Assembly: GCA_021737425.1 (NCBI GenBank)
Contig: JAIPDZ010000012.1
Span: forward strand, 1-32,729
From: Deltaproteobacteria bacterium
Lineage (GTDB): Bacteria > Desulfobacterota > DSM-4660 > Desulfatiglandales > Desulfatiglandaceae
Reading direction: 5' to 3'
Length of the DNA stretch: 32,729 bases
The notes beneath the pieces are model-generated. The model worked only from the letters and a program-made list of their open reading frames with translations. It was not told the DNA's origin and made no database searches. Every line of letters begins with the position of its first letter. Within the stretch, counting starts at the first letter, position 1. Shown piece after piece: positions 1-20,535 of this stretch. Both the position numbers and the translations under genes were made by a program.

Positions 1-1
1 A

Positions 2-1093
2 GGCCCTGAATGCCTGGCCTGCCATCCGGTTCACGGCGAAGGGGAAGATCTGCATGCCCCTCATTTGAGAGTGGCCTGCCAGGCCTGTCACAGTGTGTAC
101 AAGACGGTGAAGCTGGATCAAAAATCCGATCAGGTGCGTCTGGCCCATGTGAATGACCAGGGGATCCCCATCGGCCTCACCGATCATGCGCTTCAGAATG
201 TCGAAGACCCCGAGTTTTGTGAACGGTGTCATCATACCAAAAACAAGGTGGGGGCACCCGCGGCCGTACTTCCCTCCAAGGGGTTTATCTGCATCCTCTG
301 TCACCATGCCCCCCTGCGCATGGGGAACCCCATTTTCTGGATCGCACTGGCCCTGTTCGTCCTGGGCGTCTTTTTGACGGTGAGGTTCTGGTTCCGGGGG
401 AGTGTCCAGGGCGAGAGCCAATCTCTGCATCGGAAAATCGCGCTCAGCTCCGAATCAATATGGGGGGTGATCTTTTCAAGGGAGTTTTTCCAGATCATCA
501 AGGCCGTTATTTTCGATGTGATCTTACAAAGACGCCTCTTGCAGGAAAGCGTCAGACGATGGGCCATTCATTCCCTCATTTTTCTGCCCATCTTGTTCCG
601 CTTGTCCCTAAGCGTTTTCACCTTTTTTGCCTATCACATCAGTCCGGAGAGTGCGCTCGCCACGGCCCTCATCGACAAAAACAACGGCTTTGTGGCCTTT
701 GTAAATGACCTGACCGGTCTGTTGATCCTGGTGGGGATTGTCTGGGCCCTGATCCAGCGGGTCATCATCAAGCCCCCCCACATCCTCTCTGAGACAAGGG
801 ACAATCTGGCCCTCGCCATCATCGGGGTCCTGGTGATCCTGGGGTTTATCCTGGAAGGCGCCAGAATCTTAATGACCGGCGTTCCGGACCATGTGTCCCT
901 GTATGCGTTTATGGGATACCCCGTATCCAGACTCCTGGCCCTATGGGATATGGACTGGACGAACGGTTATGTGTACCTGTGGTACGGCCATGCCGTGGTC
1001 GGCGCACTCCTGGTGGCCTACCTGCCTTTTGGCAAGATGCGCCACATATTTAACACCCCCTTGAATCTGGTGTTGAACTACAAGATGAAATAG
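2..1093 (+). CDS. Multihaem cytochrome c with C-terminal NarI/DsrM-like membrane domain (5' truncated)
   Basis: The reading frame is open from the window edge, so the true start lies upstream. Four CxxCH haem-binding motifs are visible (CLACH, CQACH, CERCH, CILCH); more may lie outside the window. They are followed by about five hydrophobic segments, the first beginning just after the last haem motif. Histidines in or beside the last segments (YGHAVVG, KMRHIF) could ligate b-type haem, as in NarI/DsrM/HmeC-like subunits. The protein probably passes electrons between the quinone pool and a partner, with the haem head on the periplasmic side. The next gene, 29 bases downstream, encodes an HdrD-like iron-sulfur protein, the usual partner of such membrane cytochromes in sulfate reducers and relatives. 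The fusion of c-type haems and the membrane part in one chain is inferred from the continuous frame. The exact complex (Hme, Tmc, Ohc or other) cannot be named. Confidence 0.88.
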   Translation, partial: GPECLACHPVHGEGEDLHAPHLRVACQACHSVYKTVKLDQKSDQVRLAHVNDQGIPIGLTDHALQNVEDPEFCERCHHTKNKVGAPAAVLPSKGFICILCHHAPLRMGNPIFWIALALFVLGVFLTVRFWFRGSVQGESQSLHRKIALSSESIWGVIFSREFFQIIKAVIFDVILQRRLLQESVRRWAIHSLIFLPILFRLSLSVFTFFAYHISPESALATALIDKNNGFVAFVNDLTGLLILVGIVWALIQRVIIKPPHILSETRDNLALAIIGVLVILGFILEGARILMTGVPDHVSLYAFMGYPVSRLLALWDMDWTNGYVYLWYGHAVVGALLVAYLPFGKMRHIFNTPLNLVLNYKMK

Positions 1094-1122: not shown

Positions 1123-2649
1123 ATGACCAAGGATGAACACACCGAGCCTTTGAACCGTGTAGAATCCACTGAACCCGCCGTGGAGACCGAAACAACGGAA
1201 CCGGCCCTACCCGCCCCGGATGCGCCTGAGACCACGGGCGCCGAGCGGGTAAAAGATCTTCTGGTATCCGATCTAAACATGCGCCGGTTGATCGAACTGG
1301 ACGCCTGCACCCGATGCGGTGAATGCCTCACCTGGTGTCCGGTATATGATCAGGACCAGAACGAACAGATCATCCCCCGGGCCAAGGTGACCGATTTTCT
1401 CAAGATCATTCGATCCCAGCAAGGGCTGATGGGGAGCATTATGCGAAGCCACAAGGCGCCCCAGGCCCTGAAGGATTTGCTCAAAACCGTGTTTCAATAC
1501 AGGGAGCCCACCGATGCCCAGGTGCAGGAATTCGTTAAAAACCTCTACGAGTGCTCCACCTGCGGTCAATGCCATGTGGTCTGTCCGGCCCACATCGATA
1601 CCGTAAACCTGTGGGAGGATATAAGGCGCATTATTGTCAAGGCCGATTACGGCCCCTTAGAGCAGCAGAAGGCCCTGGTCAAGAGCGTCAAATCCTACGA
1701 CAATCCCTGGCAGCAACCCAGGGCCGGCCGCACCAAGTGGGCGCGCCGGGCCAAAAAGGACAACCTCATCGCAGATCTCCCCAGGGAGATCAAAAAGACC
1801 CAAGGCAAAGTCCTCCTGTTTCTGGGGTGTACGGCGGCCTATGATATCAATGTCAAACAGGTGGCCGTGAGCACCATCAACATCCTGGAGGCCCTGGATG
1901 TGGATTACGGGGTATTTGGAAAGGACGAAAAGTGCTGCGGAAGCGTGATGCTCCGAATGGGCGATCCCGAGTTTGAACGCATTGCGGCCGACAACATCCA
2001 GATGTTTCACGAGGGCGGGTTTGAGACCCTCATTACCTCCTGTGCCGGATGTTTCAAGACCATCAAGCAGGATTATCCCAAAATCGGCAAGCTCAACTTT
2101 GAAGTCCTCCACACCGTGGAATTCCTTCGGCGGCTGTATGAGGCCGGAAGGCTCAAATTCAAGAACCCGGTGGAGAAAAAAGTCACCTACCATGACCCCT
2201 GCCATCTCGGTCGCGCCACCGGGGTGTTCGACGACCCCCGGTTCATCATGGACGTCCTTCCAGGGATTGAACTCATTGAAATGCCCAGGACCCGCGAGTA
2301 CTCCAGGTGCTGCGGTGCCGGGGGGGGACTCAAATCAGGCTATCCAGATATCCAGAACAAAATGGCCCAGAGACGGGTCAGGGAGGCCGAGGAAACCGGA
2401 GCGGAAGAACTTGTCTCTGCCTGTCCTTTCTGCTATCAGGGACTGCAGATCGGGATCTCCGCCATCAACTCCCCGCTTATCATGCGCGATATCAGTTATC
2501 TCGTGGAGGCGGCCCTGATCGATCCGGCTGAAAAGCAAAAACCGGAAAAAAAGGCCAGGCGGGTCAGAAAGACCCGGGATAAGTCCCCGGAAAAAACTGA
2601 AGCAGACAAAAAGGAAGATGAGGCGGAATCCACTGCCGATGCTTCCTGA
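1123..2649 (+). CDS. HdrD-like iron-sulfur protein (2x[4Fe-4S], 2xCCG domains)
   Basis: This 508-aa protein resembles heterodisulfide reductase subunit D and related redox proteins (DsrK, glycolate oxidase iron-sulfur subunit). Two ferredoxin-type clusters are seen at C62/C65/C68/C72 and C144/C147/C150/C154. Two CCG domains follow: the first with C236, CC at 271-272 and CAGC at 307-310, the second with C360, CC at 396-397 and CPFC at 434-437. Such CCG domains bind a non-cubane [4Fe-4S] cluster that handles disulfides or shuttles electrons. No signal peptide or membrane segment is visible, so it likely sits on the cytoplasmic face of the membrane cytochrome encoded just upstream. The N-terminal 40 residues are rich in E, T and P, and the tail after about residue 470 is rich in K and E; both look like disordered extensions. 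Only 13 bases separate it from the next gene, which suggests co-transcription with the ABC importer. Confidence 0.93.
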   Translation: MTKDEHTEPLNRVESTEPAVETETTEPALPAPDAPETTGAERVKDLLVSDLNMRRLIELDACTRCGECLTWCPVYDQDQNEQIIPRAKVTDFLKIIRSQQGLMGSIMRSHKAPQALKDLLKTVFQYREPTDAQVQEFVKNLYECSTCGQCHVVCPAHIDTVNLWEDIRRIIVKADYGPLEQQKALVKSVKSYDNPWQQPRAGRTKWARRAKKDNLIADLPREIKKTQGKVLLFLGCTAAYDINVKQVAVSTINILEALDVDYGVFGKDEKCCGSVMLRMGDPEFERIAADNIQMFHEGGFETLITSCAGCFKTIKQDYPKIGKLNFEVLHTVEFLRRLYEAGRLKFKNPVEKKVTYHDPCHLGRATGVFDDPRFIMDVLPGIELIEMPRTREYSRCCGAGGGLKSGYPDIQNKMAQRRVREAEETGAEELVSACPFCYQGLQIGISAINSPLIMRDISYLVEAALIDPAEKQKPEKKARRVRKTRDKSPEKTEADKKEDEAESTADAS

Positions 2650-2662
2650 AAGGAGGCGCTCC

Positions 2663-3628
2663 ATGAAACAGTGGGTATGGATCCTATTTGCGGTGGTCCT
2701 TCTCTCTCCCCTAACCGGGCCCGGGCCTGCGGATGCCGGTCCCCCCATCCGGATTGCCTATCTTCAGAGCGATATCCATCAACTGGCCTGCTGGGTGGCC
2801 CTGGACCAGGGCTATTACCAAGCGGCCGGCCTGGACGTAGAGGTGGCCGGGATCTTCAAGGCAGGCCCGGAAGAGATGAGTGCATTTGCCGCGGGCGAAC
2901 TGGATATGGGATATGTGGGGGAGGCCCCGGCCACCACGGCCGTGGCCAACGGGGTGGCCAGGGTGACGGTGCTGGCCCAGGTCAATACAGAGGGCTCCGC
3001 CATCATGGTCCGAAAAGACGCCCCGGTTAAGACCCTGAAGGATCTGGTGAACAAGCGGATCGCCATCCCCGGTCATTCCACGGTCCAGGACTTTTTGCTG
3101 AGAAAGGCCCTGACCAAATTCAAGGTGCCGCAATCCCAAGTGCAGATTACCGTGCTCAAACCGCCGGAGATGATCGGGGCCCTGTCCGGCCGGCAGATCA
3201 ACGCCTTTATCGCCTGGGAGCCCTACCCGGCCAAGGCCCAGATTGCGGGGATCGGAAAGGTGCTGCTCACCTCGGCCCAGATCTGGCGAAATCATCCCTG
3301 CTGTGTCCTGGTGGCGGACAACCGCTTTTTAAAGGAGCGGCCCCAGGAGGCCCGATCCCTGGTCAAGGCCCATGTCCGGGCCACCGACTATATCGACACC
3401 CATCCGGAGGATGCCGTCCGCATCGGGGTCAAGTACACGGGCATGGATACAGAGACCGTACGTCTCGCCATTAAAAATGTAAATTACACCTATCAATTGA
3501 GCGTGGAGGGCGAAACGGAATACGTGAATTTTCTGACCCGGTTGAAGTATATCCGGGTGCCTGACGTGACCGCCTTTGTGGATCGGTTCATCGATCAGGC
3601 GATCTTAGCGGAAATCCTTTCCCCATGA
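2663..3628 (+). CDS. ABC transporter substrate-binding protein, SsuA/TauA/NMT1-like
   Basis: A 321-aa periplasmic binding protein of the nitrate/sulfonate/taurine family (NMT1/SsuA-like). The start at 2663 is chosen because AAAGGAGG lies just upstream; an upstream in-frame ATG at 2618 lies inside the preceding gene and would spoil the signal peptide. The N-terminus has a charged start, a hydrophobic core and an ADAG cleavage region near residue 20, then the family-typical opening IRIAYLQSD. Typical elements follow: GYYQAAGLDVEV, a glycine-rich region with DMGYVGEAPA, and FIAWEPYPAKA. The ligand cannot be read from sequence. It is translationally coupled to the permease (ATGA overlap at 3625) and belongs to the same run of genes as the radical SAM/GNAT and AIR-synthase-like proteins, so its substrate may feed that pathway; this is inference. 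Confidence 0.92.
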   Translation: MKQWVWILFAVVLLSPLTGPGPADAGPPIRIAYLQSDIHQLACWVALDQGYYQAAGLDVEVAGIFKAGPEEMSAFAAGELDMGYVGEAPATTAVANGVARVTVLAQVNTEGSAIMVRKDAPVKTLKDLVNKRIAIPGHSTVQDFLLRKALTKFKVPQSQVQITVLKPPEMIGALSGRQINAFIAWEPYPAKAQIAGIGKVLLTSAQIWRNHPCCVLVADNRFLKERPQEARSLVKAHVRATDYIDTHPEDAVRIGVKYTGMDTETVRLAIKNVNYTYQLSVEGETEYVNFLTRLKYIRVPDVTAFVDRFIDQAILAEILSP

Positions 3629-4383
3629 ACTGGGCCCGGTACCTTCTGCCGCTCCTCCTGCTGGCGCTCTGGCAGGTCCTCTCCTCTCTCAAGGCCATAC
3701 CGGTCCATCTGCTTCCCTCGCCTTTTGCCATTCTTCTTGGGTTTCGGGATCTGATGCTCACCGGCATGCCCCCCGGGTACCGGTTGCCCTACCATGCGCT
3801 CTACAGTCTCTACCGGGTGGCCTGGGGATTTTTGGCCGCCGCCCTGCTGGGGATCCCCCTGGGTCTCCTGATGGGGTGGTCCGACCGCCTTCGAGACCTC
3901 ACCACCCCCATCATTGAACTGATCCGGCCCATTCCGCCCCTGGCCTGGATCCCCATTGCCATTTTATGGTTCGGGATCGGCATGAAATCTGCGGCCTTTA
4001 TCATTTTTCTGGGGGCGTTTTTCCCCATACTGCTCAACACCATTTCCGGGGTGTTGTCCATCAATCCCCTGTTTTTTGAGGTGGCCCAGACCCTCAACGC
4101 CAAAAAGAGGGATGTGTTTTTCAAGGTGCTGATTCCCGGTTCTCTGCCGTCCATATTCGTGGGCATGCGCATCGGCGTGGGGATCGGGTGGATGACCTTG
4201 GTGGCGGCCGAATTCACCGGGGTGAAGACCGGTTACGGCCTGGGATATATGATTATGACGGCCAGGGACATTCAGCGGCCGGACGAAATACTGGCGGGCA
4301 TGCTGGTCATCGGACTGATCGGCATTCTGATCAATACGGCGCTCAAGGCCTGCGAATCGCGCATTATTCGATGGAATGCATGA
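3625..4383 (+). CDS. ABC transporter permease, SsuC/TauC-like
   Basis: A 252-aa inner-membrane permease of the binding-protein-dependent type. It shows about six hydrophobic segments, starting with YLLPLLLLALWQVL. The cytoplasmic EAA coupling loop is recognisable around FEVAQTLNAKKRDVFFKVLIPGSLP, with the conserved spacing to I-LP that contacts the ATPase. Length and layout match SsuC/TauC-type permeases. Its ATG overlaps the stop of the binding-protein gene (ATGA), so the two are co-translated. The ATPase gene follows after a 108-base gap that holds no gene. Confidence 0.93.
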   Translation: MNWARYLLPLLLLALWQVLSSLKAIPVHLLPSPFAILLGFRDLMLTGMPPGYRLPYHALYSLYRVAWGFLAAALLGIPLGLLMGWSDRLRDLTTPIIELIRPIPPLAWIPIAILWFGIGMKSAAFIIFLGAFFPILLNTISGVLSINPLFFEVAQTLNAKKRDVFFKVLIPGSLPSIFVGMRIGVGIGWMTLVAAEFTGVKTGYGLGYMIMTARDIQRPDEILAGMLVIGLIGILINTALKACESRIIRWNA

Positions 4384-4491: not shown

Positions 4492-5250
4492 ATGACCCTT
4501 GACGTTTCAGGACTGACCAAACATTTTTCCCAGGAAAAGGACGGCTCCCCTTTATCGGTACTGGACTCTATTCATTTCCGGGTACAAGAAGGCCAGTTTG
4601 TCTCCATTGTGGGCCCCAGCGGGTGTGGCAAGACCACCCTGCTCCGGATCATTGCCGGTCTGGAAAACCCCTCTGCCGGACAGGTGCTTCTGGATGGCCG
4701 GGAGATCTCCCCTGATCGGGGCCAGATCGGCCTGGTGTTTCAGGACTACGCCCTCTTCCCCTGGCGCACCACCCTGCAGAACATCGAGATAGGCCTGGAG
4801 ATGATGAAGGTCCCCAAAAAAAGGCGGCGGTCCGCGGCCATGGACTATGTGCGTTCCTTCGGCCTCACCGGTTTTGAACACGCCTATCCCAAGGCCCTGT
4901 CCGGAGGGATGAAACAGCGGGTCGCCATTGCCCGGACCTTGATTACCAATCCCAAAGTGGTGCTCATGGATGAACCCTTCGGGTCCTTAGACAGCCAGAC
5001 CCGAAACGAATTACAACAATTTCTCCTGAACCTGTGGGAGGAACACCGAAAGACCATCCTCTTTGTCACCCATAATGTGGATGAAGCGGTTTTCCTGAGC
5101 GATCACATTGTGGTATTATCCAAACGGCCCGCCAGGATCCTGAAGACGGCACCGGTCACCTGTGCCCGGCCCCGGGATCGGACCAGTTCGGAATGCAACG
5201 CAGTCCGGCGGGAGGTCCTCAACACCCTGAAACACGCCAGGCTGGCGTAA
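4492..5250 (+). CDS. ABC transporter ATP-binding protein, SsuB/TauB-like
   Basis: A 252-aa ATPase that powers the importer encoded just upstream. All nucleotide-binding motifs are intact: Walker A GPSGCGKT (41-48), Q-loop VFQDYALFPW, signature LSGGMKQR, Walker B VVLMDEP with D-loop SLD, and the switch histidine in VTHNVDEA. The FPW following the Q-loop is typical of the SsuB/TauB/NrtD group. The ATG at 4492 is the first start after an in-frame TGA at 4480-4482, and no strong ribosome site precedes it; expression may depend on read-on from the permease. The gene is followed 30 bases later by the flavoprotein gene. Confidence 0.94.
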   Translation: MTLDVSGLTKHFSQEKDGSPLSVLDSIHFRVQEGQFVSIVGPSGCGKTTLLRIIAGLENPSAGQVLLDGREISPDRGQIGLVFQDYALFPWRTTLQNIEIGLEMMKVPKKRRRSAAMDYVRSFGLTGFEHAYPKALSGGMKQRVAIARTLITNPKVVLMDEPFGSLDSQTRNELQQFLLNLWEEHRKTILFVTHNVDEAVFLSDHIVVLSKRPARILKTAPVTCARPRDRTSSECNAVRREVLNTLKHARLA

Positions 5251-5280: not shown

Positions 5281-5877
5281 ATGAAAATCTTGGGAATCTG
5301 TTGCAGTCCCCGTAAGGAGAAGACCACATATTATGCCCTGAAAACCAGCCTTACGGCCATCCCGGATGCCTACGGCCAGGTAAACACCCATCTCATTGAT
5401 TTATCGGAAAAAGAGATCAACGGATGCAAGGCGTGCGGGGCCTGTATGAAAAAACTAAAATGCAGCCAGGACGACGATTTCAACGCCCTGGTGCCCATTC
5501 TCTCCGATCCGGAGGTGGGGGGCATAATCGTGGCCACCCCCGTATACATGGGATCCATGAGTTCCCAGTGTAAGGCCTTTCTGGATCGATGTGTCATGTT
5601 CAGACGAAACGGTTTCCTGTTCCGGGACAAGGTGGGCGGCGTGATTACGGTGGGCGGCGTCAGAAACGGCGGGCAGAGCGCAACCATCCAGCATATTCAT
5701 GCGGTGATGCTGGTCCAGGATATGATCCTGGTGGGGGACGGCCAGCCCGGGGCCCACTTCGGCGGGACCATGTGGAGCGGTCATCCGGACGGCATAGAAA
5801 GGGATGAAGTGGGCATGGCCACGGTGCAAAGCCTGGGGAAAAGGGTGGCGGAAGTGGCCCTAACCGTAAACCGGTAG
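5281..5877 (+). CDS. Isf-type iron-sulfur flavoprotein (NADPH-dependent FMN reductase fold)
   Basis: A 198-aa flavodoxin-like protein. It opens with MKILGICCSPRK, where SPRK...T is the FMN-phosphate loop. A compact cysteine motif at C49/C52/C55/C61 (CX2CX2CX5C) matches the [4Fe-4S] motif of archaeal and anaerobic bacterial iron-sulfur flavoproteins (Isf). TPVYMGSMSSQCKAFLDR and GGVRNGGQ are typical of the family. Such proteins move electrons between ferredoxin-like donors and small acceptors. GGAGG lies about 10 bases before the ATG at 5281; an ATG at 5276 reads only MV-stop. The stop codon overlaps the AGGAGG of the next gene, so it is tightly linked to the radical SAM gene. It may supply electrons to that enzyme or act on the imported substrate; this is inferred from position only. 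Confidence 0.9.
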   Translation: MKILGICCSPRKEKTTYYALKTSLTAIPDAYGQVNTHLIDLSEKEINGCKACGACMKKLKCSQDDDFNALVPILSDPEVGGIIVATPVYMGSMSSQCKAFLDRCVMFRRNGFLFRDKVGGVITVGGVRNGGQSATIQHIHAVMLVQDMILVGDGQPGAHFGGTMWSGHPDGIERDEVGMATVQSLGKRVAEVALTVNR

Positions 5878-5886
5878 GAGGAAAGG

Positions 5887-7428
5887 GTGGTCCAGGTCCC
5901 GGAAATCATCGCCGAGGTCCAAAGCCTGGGAATCAGGCTGCCCCCAGGGGGGGTACAGCGAAAAGGGGGCGCAGGCCCGGCCGAGTCCGGATCCCTCCTG
6001 ATTGCCGGGTATCCGGTCAGTGTGCCTTTCAGCAGCCCCTTTGTCTCCCGATCGCCCTACCGGTTACATTCAGAAGCAGGGGGGTTCGTTTTGTGCAAAG
6101 ACCATCATGCCTTACTCCCCGTCTCATTGGTACCGCGACCCGCCTTTTATGAGGAGTCCACCCGGGATGGCATTCCGCTTTCCAAGATCGCGCTTTTGCA
6201 CGGAAAAGACTGCCTGGCCTCGTCCGTGCTGCAGACCTGTATCCACTGGGACCCGAGGACGCGCTGCCGCTTTTGCGGCATCCAGCTTTCCCTTAAAGAC
6301 AGACAGACCGTTTCCCTCAAATCCCCGGCCCAGCTGGCCGAGACCGCGCAAAAGGCCCGGACCCTGGATGCGGTCCGCCATGTGGTGCTCACCACCGGCA
6401 CGGCCCATCCTCCGGGACATGAAACCACCCTTCTTTGTGAGGCCGCGGCTGCCGTTAAACAGGCCTCCGGCCTGCCGGTACATGCCCAGTTCCTCCCGCC
6501 TGCGGACATGAACCAGCTGGAGGCCCTGAAGGCATCCGGGGTGGACACTGTGGGGATCCATATTGAAAGCCTGGATCCGGACGTTCTCCAAAAGATGGCG
6601 CCCGTCAAGGCCGCCATGGGCCTGGACCGATATGAAACCGCCTGGAAAGCGGCGGTGGAGGTATTCGGACCCAATCAGGTGAGCAGCTTTCTGATTGCGG
6701 GCCTGGGTGAAGCCCCCAACTCCATCATTCAAGGGAGCCAGTCTTTGGCGGATACGGGGGTGTATCCCTTTGTGGTTCCCCTGCGGCCCATCCCCGGTTC
6801 CCTGATGGCGGATCACCTTCCGCCCCATCCGGACACCATGAAAGCGATCTATGAAAAGGTGGCCCGTATCCTCGCCCAAAAGGGGCTTGCCGCATCCCAT
6901 AGTCGGGCCGGGTGTGTGCGGTGCGGGGCCTGCTCCGCGCTGTCTGCCTACGAAAACCCCATGGATTCCCTGGTCTGTCATCCGGCTCGAACCACGGCCG
7001 AACTGGCTGCGGCCCTTGCCATCCGGGAGTCGGTCTTTGTCCGGGAACAACAACTCTTCGAGGGCTCCGACCAAGACCCCAGGGACGGCGACAGTATCCA
7101 TCTGGTGGTCAAACAGCACCATCGGGTGATCGGCACGGTGCGGGTGTATCCTGCCGGAAACGGCAATGGGCATTGGATCGGCGGCCGACTGGCGGTCCAA
7201 AAGGGGTTCAGGTCCTCCGGGGCCGGGGAATTGCTGGTCAAAAACGCCGTCACCTGCGTCAGGCAGAGGGGCTGCACCTGTTTTACCGCCCAGATTCAAG
7301 AGAAGAACATTCCCTTCTTCCAATACCTGGGCTGGCAGGGGATTGGCCCGGTAAAGCCCCACTGCGGCAAACCCCACCAAGAGATGGCGGCCGACCTGGC
7401 CCGGGGCGGTATCGAGGATAAGGGATAG
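5887..7428 (+). CDS. Radical SAM protein (MSMEG_0568/NitD type) fused to GNAT acetyltransferase (MSMEG_0567 N-terminal/NitE type)
   Basis: A 513-aa two-domain protein with a GTG start, preceded by AGGAGG at 5876-5881. Residues about 1-360 resemble the MSMEG_0568 radical SAM family of the Nit1C cluster. The likely SAM-cluster cysteines are C118, C127 and C130, a CX8CX2C spacing instead of the usual CX3CX2C, and a second triad C343/C346/C349 (CX2CX2C) ends the domain and may hold an auxiliary cluster. From about residue 362 a GNAT domain follows, with the acetyl-CoA loop at FRSSGAGELL (441-450) and a C-terminal FFQYLGW strand region typical of the fold. In described Nit1C clusters the GNAT domain is a separate protein or is fused to the AIR-synthase-like domain; here it is fused to the radical SAM part. 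The next gene starts directly after the stop codon. The reaction is not known for the family, which has been linked to cyanide/nitrile nitrogen use. Confidence 0.9.
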   Translation: MVQVPEIIAEVQSLGIRLPPGGVQRKGGAGPAESGSLLIAGYPVSVPFSSPFVSRSPYRLHSEAGGFVLCKDHHALLPVSLVPRPAFYEESTRDGIPLSKIALLHGKDCLASSVLQTCIHWDPRTRCRFCGIQLSLKDRQTVSLKSPAQLAETAQKARTLDAVRHVVLTTGTAHPPGHETTLLCEAAAAVKQASGLPVHAQFLPPADMNQLEALKASGVDTVGIHIESLDPDVLQKMAPVKAAMGLDRYETAWKAAVEVFGPNQVSSFLIAGLGEAPNSIIQGSQSLADTGVYPFVVPLRPIPGSLMADHLPPHPDTMKAIYEKVARILAQKGLAASHSRAGCVRCGACSALSAYENPMDSLVCHPARTTAELAAALAIRESVFVREQQLFEGSDQDPRDGDSIHLVVKQHHRVIGTVRVYPAGNGNGHWIGGRLAVQKGFRSSGAGELLVKNAVTCVRQRGCTCFTAQIQEKNIPFFQYLGWQGIGPVKPHCGKPHQEMAADLARGGIEDKG

Positions 7429-8412
7429 ATGGACACTGCGCTGGAACCACTGATTCATAACACCCGAAATTATCTGGGCCTGCTTCGCAAAAGGCCCATC
7501 CAGGAGATCTATGACACCCTTCACCGCTACGGTGTCCCCGGACCCCACCTCCCCAATTACGGCGACGATGCGGCCGTCATCCCCTTTAAGGATGAGTACC
7601 TCCTGTTTGCGGCAGACGGCATGATGACCCGGCTTCTACTCAACGAACCCTATGCCGCGGGCAAGGCCTCGGTCATGGTGACCGTGAACGACATCTATTC
7701 CATGGGCGGGACCCCCCTGGCCATGGTCAATGTACTGGCCAGCGGTGACGATCTGCATCGGCGCCGGGTGATTGAAGGCATCCAAAAGGGATGTGAGAAG
7801 TTACATGTGCCCATGGTCGGGGGGCACCTCCACCCGGATACTCCGTCCGACGCCCCCTCCCTGTCCGTGGCCATTTTGGGACACGCCCGCCACCTCCTCA
7901 GGAGCCACCTGGCAGGCCCGGGGGACGATCTCCTCTTTGCGGCCGATCTGAAGGGCCGGGCCGGCTGCACCTCAGTGGTGAGTTGGGATGCCAACTCGGG
8001 CAAGACCACCCAGGAACTCCTTTATCGGCTGGAAACCCTCCCGCTCATTTCGGAGAGGCAATGGGCCCATGCCTGCAAGGACGTGAGCAATGCGGGCCTG
8101 TTGGGGACCGCATCCATCATGATGGAAAACTCAGGCAAAGGGGCCCGCATCGTGCTGGATGCCGTTCCCCACCCCCCCCAACTGGATCTTTCAGACTGGT
8201 TCACGGCCTTTCAAAGCTTCGGGTTTATTCTTTCCGTCCCCCCTGAGCATTCCAAAGGGGTCATCGACCTGTTTCAAGAACGGGCCATTGATGCCGCCGT
8301 CATTGGGCAGGTGACCGAGGAAAGGAAGATTTTTTTACAGTCCGGGTCGCAGAGCCGATGCCTGTTTGACCTTGAAAAGGAAAAAATTACCGGGATTACT
8401 GCGCCCATTTGA
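7429..8412 (+). CDS. AIR-synthase-related protein, sll0787/NitF type
   Basis: A 327-aa protein of the PurM/ThiL/SelD/HypE ATP-using superfamily. The signature elements are NYGDDAAV near residue 43, FAADGMM near 60, the TVNDIYSMGG motif near 84-93 and VGGHLHPD near 129, which place it with the sll0787-type AIR-synthase-related proteins of Nit1C clusters. PurM relatives activate an amide or carboxylate oxygen with ATP. Its ATG immediately follows the TAG of the radical SAM/GNAT gene with no spacing, so the two are almost certainly co-translated and act together. In mycobacteria the corresponding domain is fused behind the GNAT domain, which fits the order rSAM-GNAT-AIR seen here. It is the last gene of the long + strand unit; a separate promoter for the next gene overlaps its stop codon. 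Confidence 0.91.
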   Translation: MDTALEPLIHNTRNYLGLLRKRPIQEIYDTLHRYGVPGPHLPNYGDDAAVIPFKDEYLLFAADGMMTRLLLNEPYAAGKASVMVTVNDIYSMGGTPLAMVNVLASGDDLHRRRVIEGIQKGCEKLHVPMVGGHLHPDTPSDAPSLSVAILGHARHLLRSHLAGPGDDLLFAADLKGRAGCTSVVSWDANSGKTTQELLYRLETLPLISERQWAHACKDVSNAGLLGTASIMMENSGKGARIVLDAVPHPPQLDLSDWFTAFQSFGFILSVPPEHSKGVIDLFQERAIDAAVIGQVTEERKIFLQSGSQSRCLFDLEKEKITGITAPI

Positions 8413-8437
8413 AATGGATAACGGAACCTGGTATCCT
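8409..8437 (+). promoter_or_regulatory. Sigma-70-like promoter for the DUF2780 gene
   Basis: TTGAAA at 8409-8414 and TATCCT at 8432-8437 are separated by 17 bases. The -35 box overlaps the stop codon of the AIR-synthase-like gene. It would give a leader of roughly 45-50 bases before the ATG at 8492. Seen by eye only. Confidence 0.45.
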
Positions 8438-8491
8438 GGAATACAGAGCCTTTTCCATTACACACAAACACGTCCAAATTGGGAGGAAAAA

Positions 8492-8962
8492 ATGAAACCA
8501 ATACAATCGGGTATATGGATGTTGGGTATGGTGCTATTGCTGGTGGGCGCCCTTGGACTGAATGTGGGACACGCAGGGGGCATGGAGTTGGTCTCCATGC
8601 TGGTGGACAAACTGGGTGTTTCCCAGGAACAGGCCACGGGCGGAGCCGGGGCCCTGTTTCAGAACGCCAAAGAGAACCTGAGCACAGCGGCCTTTCAGAA
8701 AGTGGCCGATGCGGTGCCGGGAATGGACAAGTACCTGGCTGCTGCACCCGCCAAGAGTGAGGCCGGCAGCGCCCTGGGCAGCCTCTCCTCACTGGGAAAG
8801 GGTGCGGGGAAACTGGGGTCTATGGCCGGCCTGGCCGATTCCTTCAAGAGCCTGGGAATGGATTCGGGCATGGTTTCCAAATTCGCCCCGGTGGTCATGG
8901 AGTATGTCCAATCCAAGGGCGGGGATTCGGTGGCCGGATTGTTAAAAGGGCTGTGGAAGTAG
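8492..8962 (+). CDS. Exported DUF2780 (VcgC/VcgE-like) protein
   Basis: A 156-aa small protein with an N-terminal signal peptide (hydrophobic core IWMLGMVLLLVGALGL, likely cleavage near VGHAG). The rest is low in aromatic residues and rich in G, A, S and L. It carries the segments LVSMLVDKLGVSQEQATGGAGALFQ and VPGMDKYL, which match what is known of the DUF2780/VcgC family. No function is known for this family; predicted helices suggest an oligomeric envelope protein. The start at 8492 is set by GGAGG 9 bases upstream; the frame extends further upstream into the previous gene but without a ribosome site. It has its own likely promoter and faces an oppositely oriented gene after 24 bases. Confidence 0.85.
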   Translation: MKPIQSGIWMLGMVLLLVGALGLNVGHAGGMELVSMLVDKLGVSQEQATGGAGALFQNAKENLSTAAFQKVADAVPGMDKYLAAAPAKSEAGSALGSLSSLGKGAGKLGSMAGLADSFKSLGMDSGMVSKFAPVVMEYVQSKGGDSVAGLLKGLWK

Positions 8963-15172: not shown

Positions 15173-15694
15173 TCACCCAATCAACCCGTGGGCCGAGAGT
15201 CTGCGGACAATGGGTGGGACCATGATAGACCCCACAGTTCCGAATATGACCCCGCTGGCAGAAGAGATCAGCGCGTGTTGAAGCATGATGTCCCAGTCCA
15301 CTCCCACCATCCATTCCACCGCAATAATGGATAAAAACCGGCTCGCGGATCCCAAGGCGCCCGTAACGGCACAGAGCAGGTAGCTTTTGGCCAGCTTGGG
15401 AAAGAAAAGCCCCGTCAGATCAACCACGAGACTGGGAAGCAGAAACTTCAGAATGATCAATGGACCGCCCTTTCCCATCCCCAACAGGGTGGTGAGAAGT
15501 CCCGCAACCAGTCCCATTAAGGTAGCGGCACCGAGTCGTGGGACACACCCCCTTCCCAGGATCATGAAAAACATGGTGAAAAACATGGCATGTCCAGGTA
15601 TGTTCAAATGGAGCCGGAAGGCCCCCCGGGTGATGACAATGAAACAGGCGCAGAAGGCCAGGCAAAGCGCGTCCTGAAGGGGAAATTTTCTCAT
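15173..15694 (-). CDS. ECF transporter S component, substrate unassigned
   Basis: A 173-aa very hydrophobic protein with about six membrane segments, the size of an energy-coupling-factor substrate-binding (S) subunit. It lies last in an operon behind EcfT and a double ATPase, its ATG overlapping the EcfT stop (ATGA at 15691-15694), so the role is set mainly by context. The first helix carries LCLAFCACFIVITRGAF, and conserved-looking glycines occur in GRGCVPRLGAATLMGLVAG. I do not recognise the signature of BioY, ThiT, RibU, CbrT, QueT or YkoE, so the ligand is open. A TonB receptor and a TiaS-like protein in the same operon suggest a scarce, bulky or modified compound. Confidence 0.8.
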   Translation of the reverse strand: MRKFPLQDALCLAFCACFIVITRGAFRLHLNIPGHAMFFTMFFMILGRGCVPRLGAATLMGLVAGLLTTLLGMGKGGPLIILKFLLPSLVVDLTGLFFPKLAKSYLLCAVTGALGSASRFLSIIAVEWMVGVDWDIMLQHALISSASGVIFGTVGSIMVPPIVRRLSAHGLIG

Positions 15695-16365
15695 GAGCGC
15701 GGCTGTTCCTCAAACCCCCTGGCCTCGGCGGATCGCGCCGCTGCCCGAGCGGTTTTGAGCGCCCTCACCATGATGGGGATCATCAAGCACTGAAACAGGT
15801 CTTTCCAATGCATCGGATTCCATGCACGACGTATTCCCACCGGTGCGCCGCGGAGCTGCTGGGCCATGGTAATTTCGCGAATTTCCCGGATAAAAAAGGG
15901 AACAAAGCGTAGGCTGGTAAACAAGAGAAAGGACAATCGCCGGGGCATCACCCATTTCAAACCTTCCATCATCTGAGACCCCTGGGTGGTTCGAAGCAGT
16001 ACGATTGAGGGGAGAAAGAGCAGCAAAATCTGAGAACCGGTCCGCAGTCCCGGCCAGAAGCCTTCCGCAGGACCGTATTTCAGCATATAGAGCAGCAGGA
16101 TAACACTTAGTTGGACCAGAAAGATGCGGATATCGCGCCAGAAATTGGCCAAGCCCAGACGCGCGGAAAAATAGCATGCGAGATTGAGGGCCAACAAGAT
16201 CATCAGCGTCCACCATTCCCGTGCGGCAACCGCCGCAGCCGACAAGACCAAGGCCACAATGATTTTCCATCCCCCTCCCAGCCGGTGGATGGGGGAATTT
16301 GCAGCACAATACTGAAAGGCGCTTTTTCTGAAACCAGCCCTTTCAGTGGGCGAATATTTCTTCAA
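15691..16365 (-). CDS. ecfT: ECF transporter transmembrane component EcfT (TTG start)
   Basis: A 224-aa CbiQ/EcfT-family coupling protein with about four to five membrane segments (WKIIVALVLSAAAVAA; LVQLSVILLLYMLKYG). Its cytoplasmic coupling helices carry the two small-Arg-Gly motifs expected for contact with the ATPases: AQQLRGAP and SAEARGFEE. The start is placed at TTG 16365, because AAGGAGG lies at 16372-16378 with a 6-base spacing; ATGs at 16425 and 16407 lie deeper in the ATPase gene and have no ribosome site. With this start the gene overlaps the ATPase gene by 23 bases and is coupled to it. It links the S component in the membrane to the double ATPase. Confidence 0.9.
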   Translation of the reverse strand: MKKYSPTERAGFRKSAFQYCAANSPIHRLGGGWKIIVALVLSAAAVAAREWWTLMILLALNLACYFSARLGLANFWRDIRIFLVQLSVILLLYMLKYGPAEGFWPGLRTGSQILLLFLPSIVLLRTTQGSQMMEGLKWVMPRRLSFLLFTSLRFVPFFIREIREITMAQQLRGAPVGIRRAWNPMHWKDLFQCLMIPIMVRALKTARAAARSAEARGFEEQPRS

Positions 16366-17731
16366 TCCGTCCCTCCTTGAGTAAGAGCGTCCTATGGGCC
16401 CACTCATTGTCCGGCAGGAATTCATGGGACGCGATCACCACCGTTGTTTTCCACTGCCTCCGCAACCGGGACAGGTTCCTCAATATGCGCTTCCTACGGA
16501 AAAAATCGAGGCCTGAAAACGGTTCATCCAGCATGAGTATATCCGGTTGAGGCGCAACTATGGACGCCAGGGCTACCCGGTGCTGTTCCCCGAAACTGAG
16601 CGTCAGAGGGGATTGCCCTTTCAAGTGAGCCACCTCAAACGTATCCAGCGCATCCGTTACACGGGCCTGGATCTCGTCAGTGGACAACCCCATCCGTTTC
16701 AGCGAAAACCCCACTTCATCCCACACCGTATCTTCAAACAGCTGACGCTCGGGATTCTGGAAAAGCAATCCCATCTTTCCCAAAACCCGATCGGGTCTCG
16801 GACGGCCCACACCGTCCATCTCAATGTGCCCGGCTTGAGGCCGAATAAGGCCTGCCATGCATTTCAACAGTGTGGATTTTCCCGCACCGTTTCGACCGTA
16901 TATAAGGATCTGCTGACCCGGAAAAAATCTCAGCGCCAGATCGTTGAACACCCGCTCTTTTTGCTCATTTAAAAGAAGAAGGCGCTCTATCTCCAACAGC
17001 GGCTGTGCCAATCCGTCTACCGACCCGGGCACCTTATGGAAAAGCGTTGACGGCCCAAGGGTGAACCCGGTTGGAAGGGTACGGTGTATTTTCTGAATAC
17101 GGCCCTGATCCATGAGCACGAAACGGTCTGCCAGCGATTCAAATGGGCCCAATTCATGATCGGCAATGAGCAATGTATGGCCTGCCGCCTTCAATCGGGC
17201 CAACAGGACCGCCAATGCCGCCTTTCCCTCGGCATCCAGTTGGGCAGTGGGTTCATCCAGGAGCAGAATTGCCGGGGATGTGGACAGCACCGAGGCAATG
17301 CCGAGGCGTTCCGCCTGCCCGGCGGACAGGGTCTCCACATTTCGCCTTTCAAGTCCGCTCAGGGAGACCGCTTCCAGGCTTTTCCTGACCGTCTCGGTCC
17401 TTTGTTGAGGGGTGAACCCCCGGTTCCGGGGGCCGAAGGCCGCTTCATCCGCCACCGTAGTGCAAATAAGGTGGCTTTCCGCGTTCTGAAACACCAGGCC
17501 CGTAGATCCAGAACCGTTCCCTGTGGTAAGCAGCCGGATAGAGCCGTTTTCCTGTCCATCCCTTAGAAGACCCTTCAGCGCGAGAAACAAGGTACTCTTT
17601 CCACACCCAGAGGGTCCAGTGAAACAGATGCATTCCCCTTTTTGTATGGACAGGGATATATCGGAGATAGCCCACTCGGTTCGGCCCGGATACTGGTAGG
17701 AATACGCACTGATGGCCACAGCAGGCTTCAT
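16343..17731 (-). CDS. ECF transporter double ATP-binding protein (EcfA-EcfA' fusion)
   Basis: A 462-aa polypeptide with two complete ABC domains in tandem, as in YkoD-type ECF ATPases. Domain 1 has Walker A GPSGCGKST, signature LSAGQ, Walker B AILLLDEP and H-loop ADHEL. Domain 2 has Walker A GRNGAGKST, signature LSFGE, Walker B DILMLDEP and H-loop ASHEF. All catalytic motifs are intact in both halves. The ATG at 17731 (MKPAVAI) is preferred over 17752, as neither the extra seven residues nor the upstream bases look like a translation start for 17752; this choice is moderate. It follows the TiaS-like gene by 36 bases and overlaps the EcfT gene, which carries its ribosome site inside this frame. 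Confidence 0.93.
   Translation of the reverse strand: MKPAVAISAYSYQYPGRTEWAISDISLSIQKGECICFTGPSGCGKSTLFLALKGLLRDGQENGSIRLLTTGNGSGSTGLVFQNAESHLICTTVADEAAFGPRNRGFTPQQRTETVRKSLEAVSLSGLERRNVETLSAGQAERLGIASVLSTSPAILLLDEPTAQLDAEGKAALAVLLARLKAAGHTLLIADHELGPFESLADRFVLMDQGRIQKIHRTLPTGFTLGPSTLFHKVPGSVDGLAQPLLEIERLLLLNEQKERVFNDLALRFFPGQQILIYGRNGAGKSTLLKCMAGLIRPQAGHIEMDGVGRPRPDRVLGKMGLLFQNPERQLFEDTVWDEVGFSLKRMGLSTDEIQARVTDALDTFEVAHLKGQSPLTLSFGEQHRVALASIVAPQPDILMLDEPFSGLDFFRRKRILRNLSRLRRQWKTTVVIASHEFLPDNEWAHRTLLLKEGRIEEIFAH
16372..16378 (-). promoter_or_regulatory. Ribosome binding site deciding the TTG start of EcfT
   Basis: On the - strand the sequence AAGGAGG lies 6 bases before TTG (16365-16363), inside the 3' end of the ATPase gene. 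None of the upstream ATG candidates has a comparable site. Confidence 0.7.
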
Positions 17732-17767
17732 AAGACCCCAGCCGAGTCCCATGGGAAATATGGGGGA

Positions 17768-18487
17768 TTAGTCCTTTTTTCGCTTTTCATCCAGGGATTC
17801 CCATGTGCCTTCCCCTGTTTTATGTACGGCAAGCACGGCCCTGTTCCCCCAGAGCCTGGGCCGCAGCCAGTTCTTGGTATATACCCGATCCTGGGGAGCC
17901 GGGGCCTGCGCATCCCGATCCAGCGATACCACCCGAATATGGGCCTGGTTCAATTCAGACACCCTCACCGTCTCGGGAAAATCGCGGAGGCCATTGAATT
18001 CAATAAATCGGCCGCTCCAACCCGAGGCCGTCAATCCCACGGCCGCCGCAGCACCGATGATGCCGTCATTCGTTCCCCCATGGCCCGAAAGGTGAAATCC
18101 GGAAGCCGCCCTGAGGGCCGCTTTCTGTTCAACCACTTCCCGGGTGCAGAGAAGACCGAAATGGACCAGGACCGACAGGTCCCTTACGCCGTTCGAGGCC
18201 ACGCATATACCCGGGTCGCTTCCCGGGAGAGAATGCTGCGTCAGGTGTGTCACAGCCCGATGGGTTAATTCCGGCAGCAGGGACAGGTCCTTCATGTCCA
18301 CCACCACGCATGCAGCACTGTTGTGGGAGGTATAGGGGATGTGGTCATGCAACAGCAGTTGCTGCCGAACCACTCCCCACATGCGGCACCCTTTTGGCAG
18401 CTCCTTTTCAAACCACCGGGCCAGCTTTCCGGTCCCGCGGTCGGCATATTTATTGTCGGTATCATCAAGACCGATATAGATACGCAT
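17768..18487 (-). CDS. TiaS N-terminal-like protein (stand-alone TCKD/ferredoxin-like domains)
   Basis: A 239-aa soluble protein that resembles the first half of archaeal tRNA(Ile2) 2-agmatinylcytidine synthase TiaS. Shared features seen by eye are the opening IYIGLDDTDN (ATP/Mg-binding DDTD), HIPYTSHNSAACVVVD (compare IPYKTRGNGAV in TiaS), GSDPGICVA (compare TNPG) and DGIIGAAAAVGL (compare GLIGALAAVG). The OB-fold and zinc-ribbon parts that bind tRNA in TiaS are absent, so it is unlikely to modify tRNA, and bacteria use TilS for that role. It lies between a TonB receptor (17 bases upstream) and an ECF ATPase (36 bases downstream), which suggests a role in handling or phosphorylating the imported compound. 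That role is inference; the family relation is fairly sure. Confidence 0.85.
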   Translation of the reverse strand: MRIYIGLDDTDNKYADRGTGKLARWFEKELPKGCRMWGVVRQQLLLHDHIPYTSHNSAACVVVDMKDLSLLPELTHRAVTHLTQHSLPGSDPGICVASNGVRDLSVLVHFGLLCTREVVEQKAALRAASGFHLSGHGGTNDGIIGAAAAVGLTASGWSGRFIEFNGLRDFPETVRVSELNQAHIRVVSLDRDAQAPAPQDRVYTKNWLRPRLWGNRAVLAVHKTGEGTWESLDEKRKKD

Positions 18488-18504
18488 GGGGTTTCTCCGG
18501 GTTC

Positions 18505-20529
18505 CTAAAAATGGACTGCCAGACCGCCGTAAATGGTGCGCCCGGCCGCTGGAAATCCGTAACTCTCTTCATAATATTTATCAAACAGATTATCTGCGCC
18601 CACATAGAGATCCAATAACCCGTTGAATAGGGTTTGGTCGAATTTTACGTTGACCACGGCGAAGTTATCCAAATCCCGCTTCTGGAGCGGTTCGGACCGG
18701 GAGTAATAAACCTGATCTGCATTATAAATGATATTGGCGTAGGCGGAAAAACCGAAGTAAAAGGTATATTTTCCCTCCAGGGTCAGTTTGTGTCGGGGCC
18801 GGTATTGAAGCTCCTCTTTCTGACTGCCGGGCGACTTGTCCTTCGTATCCATGAAGGTGTATCCCAGGCGCAGCATGAGGGATTCAATAAATCGGGTCTC
18901 AGCAGTCAATTCGATACCCTGGAACCGATACTTGTCGTAATTCTGGAAATAGTCATCGTCAGGCGGTTTCTCAATGTAGTTGTCCACATCACACAAAAAT
19001 CCGGTCAGCGCCACCCGGCTGTTAAGGGGAAGCATCTGCTCCACCCCCAGTTCATAGTTGTAGGCGGTTTCCGGCACCAGATCCGGATTGCCCTCGTTGA
19101 TCTGGTAGAGCTGCCGAATGGAGGGGAATCGTATCTTCTTGGCAAACGCCCCTCGAACCCGAGTGCCTTGCACAATGTCGTAATATACGCCTGCCATGTA
19201 ACTTCCCTTGTTTTCATTGGGTCCTGATTTCTTATCCTGCCAGTAGTGGCCGTACCCCAATACCACGCCCAGACGGTCAACCGGCTTGACTTCGTATTCC
19301 AGAGAGGCGCTGTAGATCCACATGCTCCAGTAGTTGTCAAAGTTTCTCAATTCATAATCACTCCCCGTTTTCACATCCCTGATCTTGCCTCTGGAATCAT
19401 ATTCCTGTTTCTGGGCGTCAAGGGCCAGGGTGAAGTCCCCTAAGGATGTCAGGTCCATGGCGGTCTGAAGGGTGCCGCCCCAGGTTTTGGATGTGCCGTC
19501 TTCAAAGTAGGTGTTTTTTGCGGTCATGGAATTGTAGTTGTCGTCATCATAACGGGTCCGCAGCTCGTCATACTGATTGAAATAGGCCCAGCCCCGAATC
19601 TCAAGAGGCCCTGGCAGGTCATAGCGGGTCGAAAACTGGGTATTGAAGCCCTCGAAATTATTGACCCGTTCATATTTCGGATTGTTGGCAAAGGGGTCGG
19701 GGTCGGTTTTGGTACTCTGCTCGGTGCTGGGGGGGATACCAAAATGCCCGTTTACAAAACTGGCCACCAGTCCAAGGTCCCAATCTTCTGTAGGCGAATA
19801 CCCGATATTACCGAAGAGGTTATTCCGCCGGTTGTCGCTGTTCTCCCTTGATCTGTCGCTCTGAAGCGGTGTGGGCGTAAAATCGTCGGCCAAAGGGAAG
19901 TCCCTCCGGGCCGCCATGCTGCCGCTGGCAAAAAAATCCATATTCTTTTGAGCGCCGCCTACGTTGAACCGGCCCACACGTTGTGTGCCTTCGCCGATCT
20001 CTCCGGAGGCCATCCCCTGAAGGCCCTTTTTTCCTTTTTTGGTGATAATGTTAATCACTCCCCCCATTCCCCCCTGGCCATAAAGCACGGAATTGGCGCC
20101 ATAGCTCACCTTTATTCTGGCTATGTTTTCGGTGGGAATGATGGAGGGATCGAATTGTCCGTCATAGGTGGAGTTGAGCGGCGCGCCGTCGAGCAGGAGC
20201 AGAACATGGCGCGACCTGAACCCATGGAGATCCACCCTTGGAATGCCTTGAGCACCGATCCTGATCTCCACCCCAGGCAGCAATTCCAGGGCCTGGTCCA
20301 GGGTCCTGGCGTCCTTGTTTTGAATGTCTTCGGCCGTGATCTCTCGAACGGTCCCGGCGCCTTCCACCACCTCCCGGCTGGCCGACACCACCACCTCGCC
20401 CAGGGTGTAAACGCCTTCCTCCTTCTTGTCCGGCTCAGCCGCACTCAGGGCGGGCACAGCCCAGATCGACGCCATAATAACCAAAAATGACATAAATAAA
20501 CCCGAGAAAACTTTCTTCGGCATGTGCAT
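18505..20529 (-). CDS. TonB-dependent outer-membrane receptor
   Basis: A 674-aa outer-membrane receptor. It has a signal peptide (VFSGLFMSFLVIMASIWAVPALSA) and then a plug domain with the TonB-box-like LGEVVVSASR, the DALELLPGVEIR and GFRSRHVLLLLDGAPLN segments, and YGQGGMGGVINIITKK. A long beta-barrel follows, ending in the aromatic-terminated GLAVHF. Length and plug motifs are nearest to BtuB/FepA-like receptors, but the ligand cannot be told from this. The ATG at 20529 is chosen because AGGAGG at 20536-20541 sits 6 bases ahead; GTG 20535 touches that site and ATG 20523 is 12 bases away. It is the first gene of a five-gene operon whose other members form an ECF importer, so both membranes are served by one transcript. 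Confidence 0.95.
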   Translation of the reverse strand: MHMPKKVFSGLFMSFLVIMASIWAVPALSAAEPDKKEEGVYTLGEVVVSASREVVEGAGTVREITAEDIQNKDARTLDQALELLPGVEIRIGAQGIPRVDLHGFRSRHVLLLLDGAPLNSTYDGQFDPSIIPTENIARIKVSYGANSVLYGQGGMGGVINIITKKGKKGLQGMASGEIGEGTQRVGRFNVGGAQKNMDFFASGSMAARRDFPLADDFTPTPLQSDRSRENSDNRRNNLFGNIGYSPTEDWDLGLVASFVNGHFGIPPSTEQSTKTDPDPFANNPKYERVNNFEGFNTQFSTRYDLPGPLEIRGWAYFNQYDELRTRYDDDNYNSMTAKNTYFEDGTSKTWGGTLQTAMDLTSLGDFTLALDAQKQEYDSRGKIRDVKTGSDYELRNFDNYWSMWIYSASLEYEVKPVDRLGVVLGYGHYWQDKKSGPNENKGSYMAGVYYDIVQGTRVRGAFAKKIRFPSIRQLYQINEGNPDLVPETAYNYELGVEQMLPLNSRVALTGFLCDVDNYIEKPPDDDYFQNYDKYRFQGIELTAETRFIESLMLRLGYTFMDTKDKSPGSQKEELQYRPRHKLTLEGKYTFYFGFSAYANIIYNADQVYYSRSEPLQKRDLDNFAVVNVKFDQTLFNGLLDLYVGADNLFDKYYEESYGFPAAGRTIYGGLAVHF

Positions 20530-20535
20530 GGACAC

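Follow-up and report, generated by a model that had tools for sequence, protein, structure and literature searches.

A widespread relative of the Nit1C core that lacks the nitrilase and appears to serve an undescribed anaerobic pathway in Desulfobacterota

Introduction

What does the radical SAM (rSAM), GNAT and AIR-synthase-like (AIRS) core of the Nit1C cluster do in a genome without the Nit1C nitrilase? The question is raised by two adjoining genes in a window of 32,729 nucleotides, the entire contig C154 of a 4.14 Mb draft genome in 309 contigs. The Nit1C cluster, familiar from aerobes that consume cyanide, comprises NitBCDEFGH (Podar 2005, PMC1199592; Pseudomonas CECT 5344, PMC11049912). 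Its NitD (rSAM), NitE (GNAT) and NitF (AIRS-like) belong to the same families as the genes studied here and stand in the same order. We know of no established roles for NitD, NitE and NitF in cyanide assimilation. A first-pass annotation, made from the letters alone, had read the two genes as a Nit1C-like core lacking the nitrilase and the flavin monooxygenase, in an apparently anaerobic setting and possibly serving a variant pathway.

Results

The rSAM-GNAT fusion and its AIRS-like partner

Both genes lie on the forward strand, and their reported spacing of zero bases was confirmed.

5887..7428, +, rSAM-GNAT fusion, 513 aa, GTG start, AGGAGG-type ribosome site just 5'
7429..8412, +, AIRS-like protein, 327 aa, ATG start, between the Mm2 and sll0787 families

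Two of the three Nit1C hallmarks claimed for the pair stood, namely rSAM (TIGR04043, 387.3 bits against a cut-off of 303.7, residues 10-356, about 5914-6954) and GNAT (TIGR04045, 116.2 bits against 68.45, residues 364-505, about 6976-7401), and because the two matches fall within the same reading frame, the fusion is real. The third did not, since the AIRS-like protein stays below the cut-off of TIGR04049 (283.9 bits against 321.3) and ties with TIGR03267 (methan_mark_2, 284.0 bits), which is likewise below its cut-off of 365; by these scores it is not a clear member of the sll0787 family. Both the fusion and the pair have homologues in many independent genomes; relatives in genome contigs were found with an alignment query, none having been confirmed with a single-sequence query.

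Six cysteines of the rSAM protein, C118-X8-C127-X2-C130 and C343-X2-C346-X2-C349, are invariant across 36 homologues; we infer that the CX8CX2C motif provides the ligands of the SAM cluster, and the C-terminal CX2CX2C motif probably marks an auxiliary cluster. In the AF2 model of the fusion (pLDDT 92.9) the barrel folds like HydE, LipA, NifB and BioB and the GNAT domain like SACOL1063, and the AIRS model (pLDDT 92.3) matches HypE, SelD, ThiL and PurL. LipS2, LipA, BioB and HydE likewise have the barrel and a second cysteine motif, but here CX8CX2C stands in place of CX3CX2C and the sequence similarity is weak. A lipoyl-synthase relative was rejected as the identity of the protein: the LipS2 model NF053743 gives 35.1 bits against a cut-off of 270, and LipS2 carries the canonical CX3CX2C motif (PMC9585515).

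A DUF2780 (VcgC/VcgE) frame at 8366-8962 (+) overlaps the end of the AIRS gene; its true start is probably further downstream, the gene being independent of AIRS.

The pair ends an operon of import and electron-transfer genes

The pair forms the 3' end of an operon, here called arm A, whose start lies beyond the contig and whose other genes in the window are as follows.

1..1093, +, C-terminal part (363 aa) of a multihaem cytochrome c / NarI-like cytochrome b protein (PF02665, 26.0 bits), truncated by the contig end
1123..2649, +, HdrD-like protein with two complete CCG domains (PF02754, 118 bits) and two 4Fe-4S motifs
2618..3628, +, SsuA/TauA-type solute-binding protein of an ABC importer (TIGR01728, 182.5 bits, above the cut-off of 163.5)
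3625..4383, +, ABC importer permease (PF00528; top NCBIfam models SaoP and TauC, below their cut-offs)
4492..5250, +, ABC importer ATPase (PF00005; top NCBIfam model SaoA, below its cut-off)
5281..5877, +, flavodoxin-like / NADPH-dependent FMN reductase-family protein with a Cys-rich segment (PF03358, 101.8 bits)

The cytochrome protein is 62% identical to its homologue in another genome (G252), the HdrD-like protein has C..CC..CxxC motifs at residues 236-310 and 360-437 and CxxCxxCxxxC motifs at 62 and 144, the solved proteins closest to the solute-binding protein bind taurine and sulfonate, and the flavodoxin-like gene is kept at the same position in several genomes.

At its left end C154 has 139 bases in common, without mismatch, with the left end of contig C203 taken in reverse, an overlap typical of an assembler graph break, so that the two contigs likely adjoin in the genome; across the joint the cytochrome c/b frame stays open over 491 aa. 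C203 contributes a multihaem cytochrome c, a GATase-like protein (PF09825), an AOR-N protein and a ferredoxin, and with them arm A would read ferredoxin, AOR-N, GATase-like protein, multihaem cytochrome c, cytochrome c/b fusion, HdrD-like protein, SsuA-type ABC importer, flavodoxin-like protein, rSAM-GNAT and AIRS. The apparently anaerobic setting read from the window was supported, being of an anaerobic electron-transfer type. A nitrilase with further Nit1C genes just upstream would have contradicted the first reading; what the overlap leads to instead is the AOR-N, ferredoxin and multihaem cytochrome genes and a corrinoid methyltransferase operon.

A divergent corrinoid operon on the probably adjoining contig

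This operon, arm B, runs on C203 divergently from arm A, in the order GntR, ALDH, GlcD, HdrD2, LivKHMGF, MtrH, UROD (UROD2), corrinoid protein, RACo activator and MtaA-like UROD. The genome itself thus carries on this contig a UROD protein, a corrinoid protein, MtrH and a RACo-type activator, the Pfam assignments resting on its own MtrH and, for the remaining members, on homologues. The same divergent two-operon layout occurs in two further genomes (G252 and G118), and in a third (G258, L045) arm A and the corrinoid-set genes share one locus. Nine of ten hits of the MtaA-like protein among 297 genomes fall in the 25 that carry the rSAM (p about 4e-10, kinship ignored); the corrinoid protein, with 11 of 18 hits in these 25 (n=297), is less sharply tied than the arginase-family protein described below. 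Unfused relatives (families f36, f75 and f14) have parts of arm A without an arginase-family or MtaA-like gene, so that arm B is not obligatory.

Nit1C partner families are absent, and a distinct nitrilase is present

The claimed lack of nitrilase and flavin monooxygenase held genome-wide for the Nit1C families. Among the 27 rSAM genomes searched, none has the nitrilase NitC (TIGR04048) above cut-off, the best score in the window's genome being 226.9 bits against 502.6; none has NitB (TIGR04044) above cut-off, with no match at all in the window's genome; and none has the flavin oxidoreductase NitH (TIGR04046) at E 1e-10, a control genome scoring above cut-off. Besides the absence of these three families, the locus differs from Nit1C in the fusion of rSAM to GNAT, in an AIRS protein below the family cut-off, in its other operon partners and in the separate clade of its rSAM; the failed family tests and the rSAM tree rule out Nit1C as the identity of the cluster. 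A literature search for the gene arrangement returned Nit1C work and unrelated matches only.

The claim failed for nitrilases at large, as the genome holds a distinct true nitrilase of 323 aa on contig C187 (genome G000, L007:1891-2862, reverse strand), adjoining a HAD hydrolase and a GntR regulator. Nitrilases of this type occur in 7 of 11 genomes of the fused clade, this one included, and are 54-59% identical where read; of the other rSAM genomes, 1 of 16 has a nitrilase, a different one closer to Nit1C (Fisher p 0.002 against the fused clade). In one genome (G142) the gene lies within a cluster of Liv transporter, nitrilase and AOR.

Elsewhere, a weak NitB-like segment was seen just upstream of the rSAM gene in an HdrD context (G077, L060:10714-11064); this locus is a possible intermediate between the arrangements.

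An arginase-family protein accompanies the core from elsewhere in the genome

An arginase-family gene, 47% identical to the query, lies on contig C285 of the window's genome. Its product gives a clear Pfam arginase match and no match in a sequence search of the PDB; the arginase metal ligands are conserved, save that a single member carries Gln at the position of the first His. The protein was found in 12 of 297 genomes of the phylum (E 1e-30), and all 12 carry the rSAM (hypergeometric p about 7e-15, kinship ignored). Nine of these hits, at 41-52% identity to the query, belong to the fused clade, and the other three are at 30-33%. Each of four families (f1, f10, f12 and f18) includes genomes with both the arginase-family protein and the rSAM and genomes with neither.

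Distribution of the core and the rSAM tree

The TIGR04043 cut-off is exceeded in 25 of 297 sampled genomes of the phylum, and the order cytochrome, HdrD, ABC importer, (flavodoxin-like), rSAM(-GNAT) and AIRS recurs in several Desulfobacterota families. Neighbourhoods were called with a simple longest-ORF caller, which is error-prone in G+C-rich loci, and key places were rechecked by tblastn. In five Desulfobacterales-type loci (L085, L086, L087, L089 and L123) the core is preceded by arginase-family and ALDH genes, and in four of them also by an MtaA-like UROD. In L086 and L082 an SsuA-type ABC importer directly follows AIRS, which ties the two core arrangements together; L082 also has an ALDH gene before the core.

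In an unrooted tree of 66 rSAM rows, the window's protein falls in a separate 24-row clade (100/98), and the nitrilase-linked Nit1C proteins form a single 6-row clade (100/100). Judged from these sequences, the rSAM/GNAT fusion is a trait common to a large Desulfobacterota clade. The Nit1C clade is adjoined by Chloroflexota loci with NitB and Amidohydro_2 and without nitrilase; an Amidohydro_2 protein beside NitB takes the nitrilase's place in L098:8393-11557, L100:7270-10417, L105:8243-12686 and L102:4248-9368 (Chloroflexota and Desulfovibrio MAGs), two termite-gut-type Desulfovibrio MAGs, whose gut origin is read from isolate names, sharing this layout. No convincing match to the Chloroflexota-type amidohydrolase was found in the Desulfobacterota rSAM genomes. 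Outside the Nit1C clade the core occurs with other C-N hydrolases or with none, and the nitrilase is likely a late acquisition of Nit1C.

The archaeal rSAM proteins (Methanophagales, Lokiarchaeota and others) stand apart in the tree. Each of the eight rSAM genomes examined from archaea or actinobacteria also has an Mm2-type AIRS, from which rSAM and AIRS may be the minimal unit.

Several neighbourhoods of other rSAM copies were also recorded. Two copies in Methanophagales (L096:9959-11041 and 17409-18485) lie amid cysteine, methionine and homocysteine genes; an archaeal copy overlaps the end of an HcyBio gene (L106:1897-4484); lokiarchaeal copies (L118, L119, L120 and L122) lie near methylmalonyl-CoA mutase genes; and in a single-contig deltaproteobacterial MAG (L054:9478-14875) a threonine-synthase-like gene and one of the cystathionine-gamma-synthase family come after the fused rSAM-GNAT and AIRS.

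Discussion

The pair is a genuine and widespread relative of the Nit1C core, without its nitrilase, and stands within what appears to be an undescribed anaerobic pathway. The notion of a variant pathway with another substrate was thereby partly upheld, in that the core lacks the Nit1C nitrilase and probably serves another pathway, acting here on a substrate that is likely not a nitrile; it needs amending in that the fusion is not peculiar to this genome. We propose a set of anaerobic catabolic genes in two arms, one of which ends with the rSAM-GNAT/AIRS pair, and regard rSAM-AIRS(-GNAT) as a general module that is not bound to nitriles; we give this reading a little less than an even chance.

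In the proposed pathway, a methylated, nitrogen-containing organic compound would be imported by the two ABC systems, as their families suggest, and the corrinoid set, in the manner of MtoABCD (PMC8630106), would pass the methyl group of this compound on to folate. GlcD and ALDH could oxidise the carbon skeleton, with electrons passing through the HdrD-like proteins and cytochromes. The rSAM protein and the ATP-using AIRS protein could transform an intermediate or assemble a small co-substrate, and the GNAT domain could acylate the intermediate or co-substrate of that step. A lineage-specific C-N hydrolase would complete the route, namely the arginase-family protein in the window's genome, the nitrilase in true Nit1C, and the amidohydrolase in Chloroflexota and termite-gut Desulfovibrio. 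The order of the steps and the substrate are guesses. More broadly, and only tentatively, since we think it possible but doubtful, rSAM-AIRS(-GNAT) could be an old module that transforms small C-N (or C-S) compounds in an undescribed way, of which Nit1C would be one derived aerobic use and which in Desulfobacterota would belong to an undescribed anaerobic pathway combining corrinoid demethylation of a nitrogen compound with arginase-family cleavage.

Nitrile or cyanide assimilation could operate after all, the core acting as in Nit1C and the nitrilase step being supplied in trans from C187. The true nitrilase on that contig, its uneven distribution between the fused clade (7/11) and the other rSAM genomes (1/16), and its position between Liv transporter and AOR genes in G142 agree with this, but the NitB and NitH families are absent, the neighbourhoods of the nitrilase vary between genomes, and four fused-clade genomes lack it; we consider such a route rather unlikely. 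An unlikely but somewhat better alternative is that the product of the rSAM-AIRS core is a cofactor or amino-acid derivative that contains sulfur, made by sulfur insertion as in LipS2 or BioB for the methyltransferase and HdrD-like proteins, for example a CoM-like thiol. The BioB/LipA-like fold points this way together with a LipS2 similarity that is itself weak (35 bits against 270) and accompanied by CX8CX2C, as do the Methanophagales neighbours (IscS, IscU, CysK, MetY, MetX, LarE, ThiF and HcyBio), the overlap of HcyBio with rSAM in L106, and the threonine-synthase-like and cystathionine-synthase-family genes after AIRS in G031. The SsuA-type importer above cut-off, the MtaA-like protein and the HdrD-like protein with its two CCG domains would fit as well; however, CCG proteins have many non-thiol roles, and Nit1C shows no visible sulfur link.

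That the core is a mere passenger, a conserved housekeeping module standing by chance beside catabolic genes, could account for the identical core in very different settings, but it is at odds with the tight operon spacing, the gene order kept across families and the co-occurrence with the unlinked arginase-family and MtaA-like genes, and we regard it as very improbable. Against the two-arm catabolic reading that we prefer stand the archaeal and f34 rSAM copies, whose position beside sulfur-amino-acid genes fits a role other than the proposed pathway, the unfused relatives that have arm A parts without arginase-family or MtaA-like genes, and the nitrilase of this and six related genomes, which could take part.

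Parts of the gene set resemble known systems. Arm B shares with MtoABCD and bacterial O-demethylases (PMC8630106) the UROD methyltransferase, the small corrinoid protein, the MtrH-family protein and the 2Fe-2S activator; unlike these, it has two UROD-family proteins, ALDH, GlcD, HdrD2 and a Liv importer, with the arginase-family protein elsewhere in the genome. Arm A resembles HdrDE-type complexes in its two CCG domains, its 4Fe-4S motifs and the NarI-like cytochrome b that would be their partner, whereas the cytochrome b here forms one protein with a multihaem domain. The AIRS-like protein matches methanogenesis marker 2 (TIGR03267), which the archaeal rSAM genomes carry, as well as it does TIGR04049, but it is below the curated cut-off and its host lineage is bacterial.

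A core wired into a methyl- and electron-transfer set without nitrilase suggests a role more general than nitrile use, and its occurrence with another hydrolase and a corrinoid set offers a comparative handle on core function. It suggests that relatives of sulfate reducers have a catabolic pathway not yet described, and a nitrile or cyanide annotation of these genes in anaerobes is likely misleading.

Farther along the window, 15691-20535 (-) encodes a CbiQ-type cobalt/ECF transport protein, a double ABC ATPase and a TonB-dependent receptor, possibly for corrinoid or metal uptake near the corrinoid-dependent gene set.
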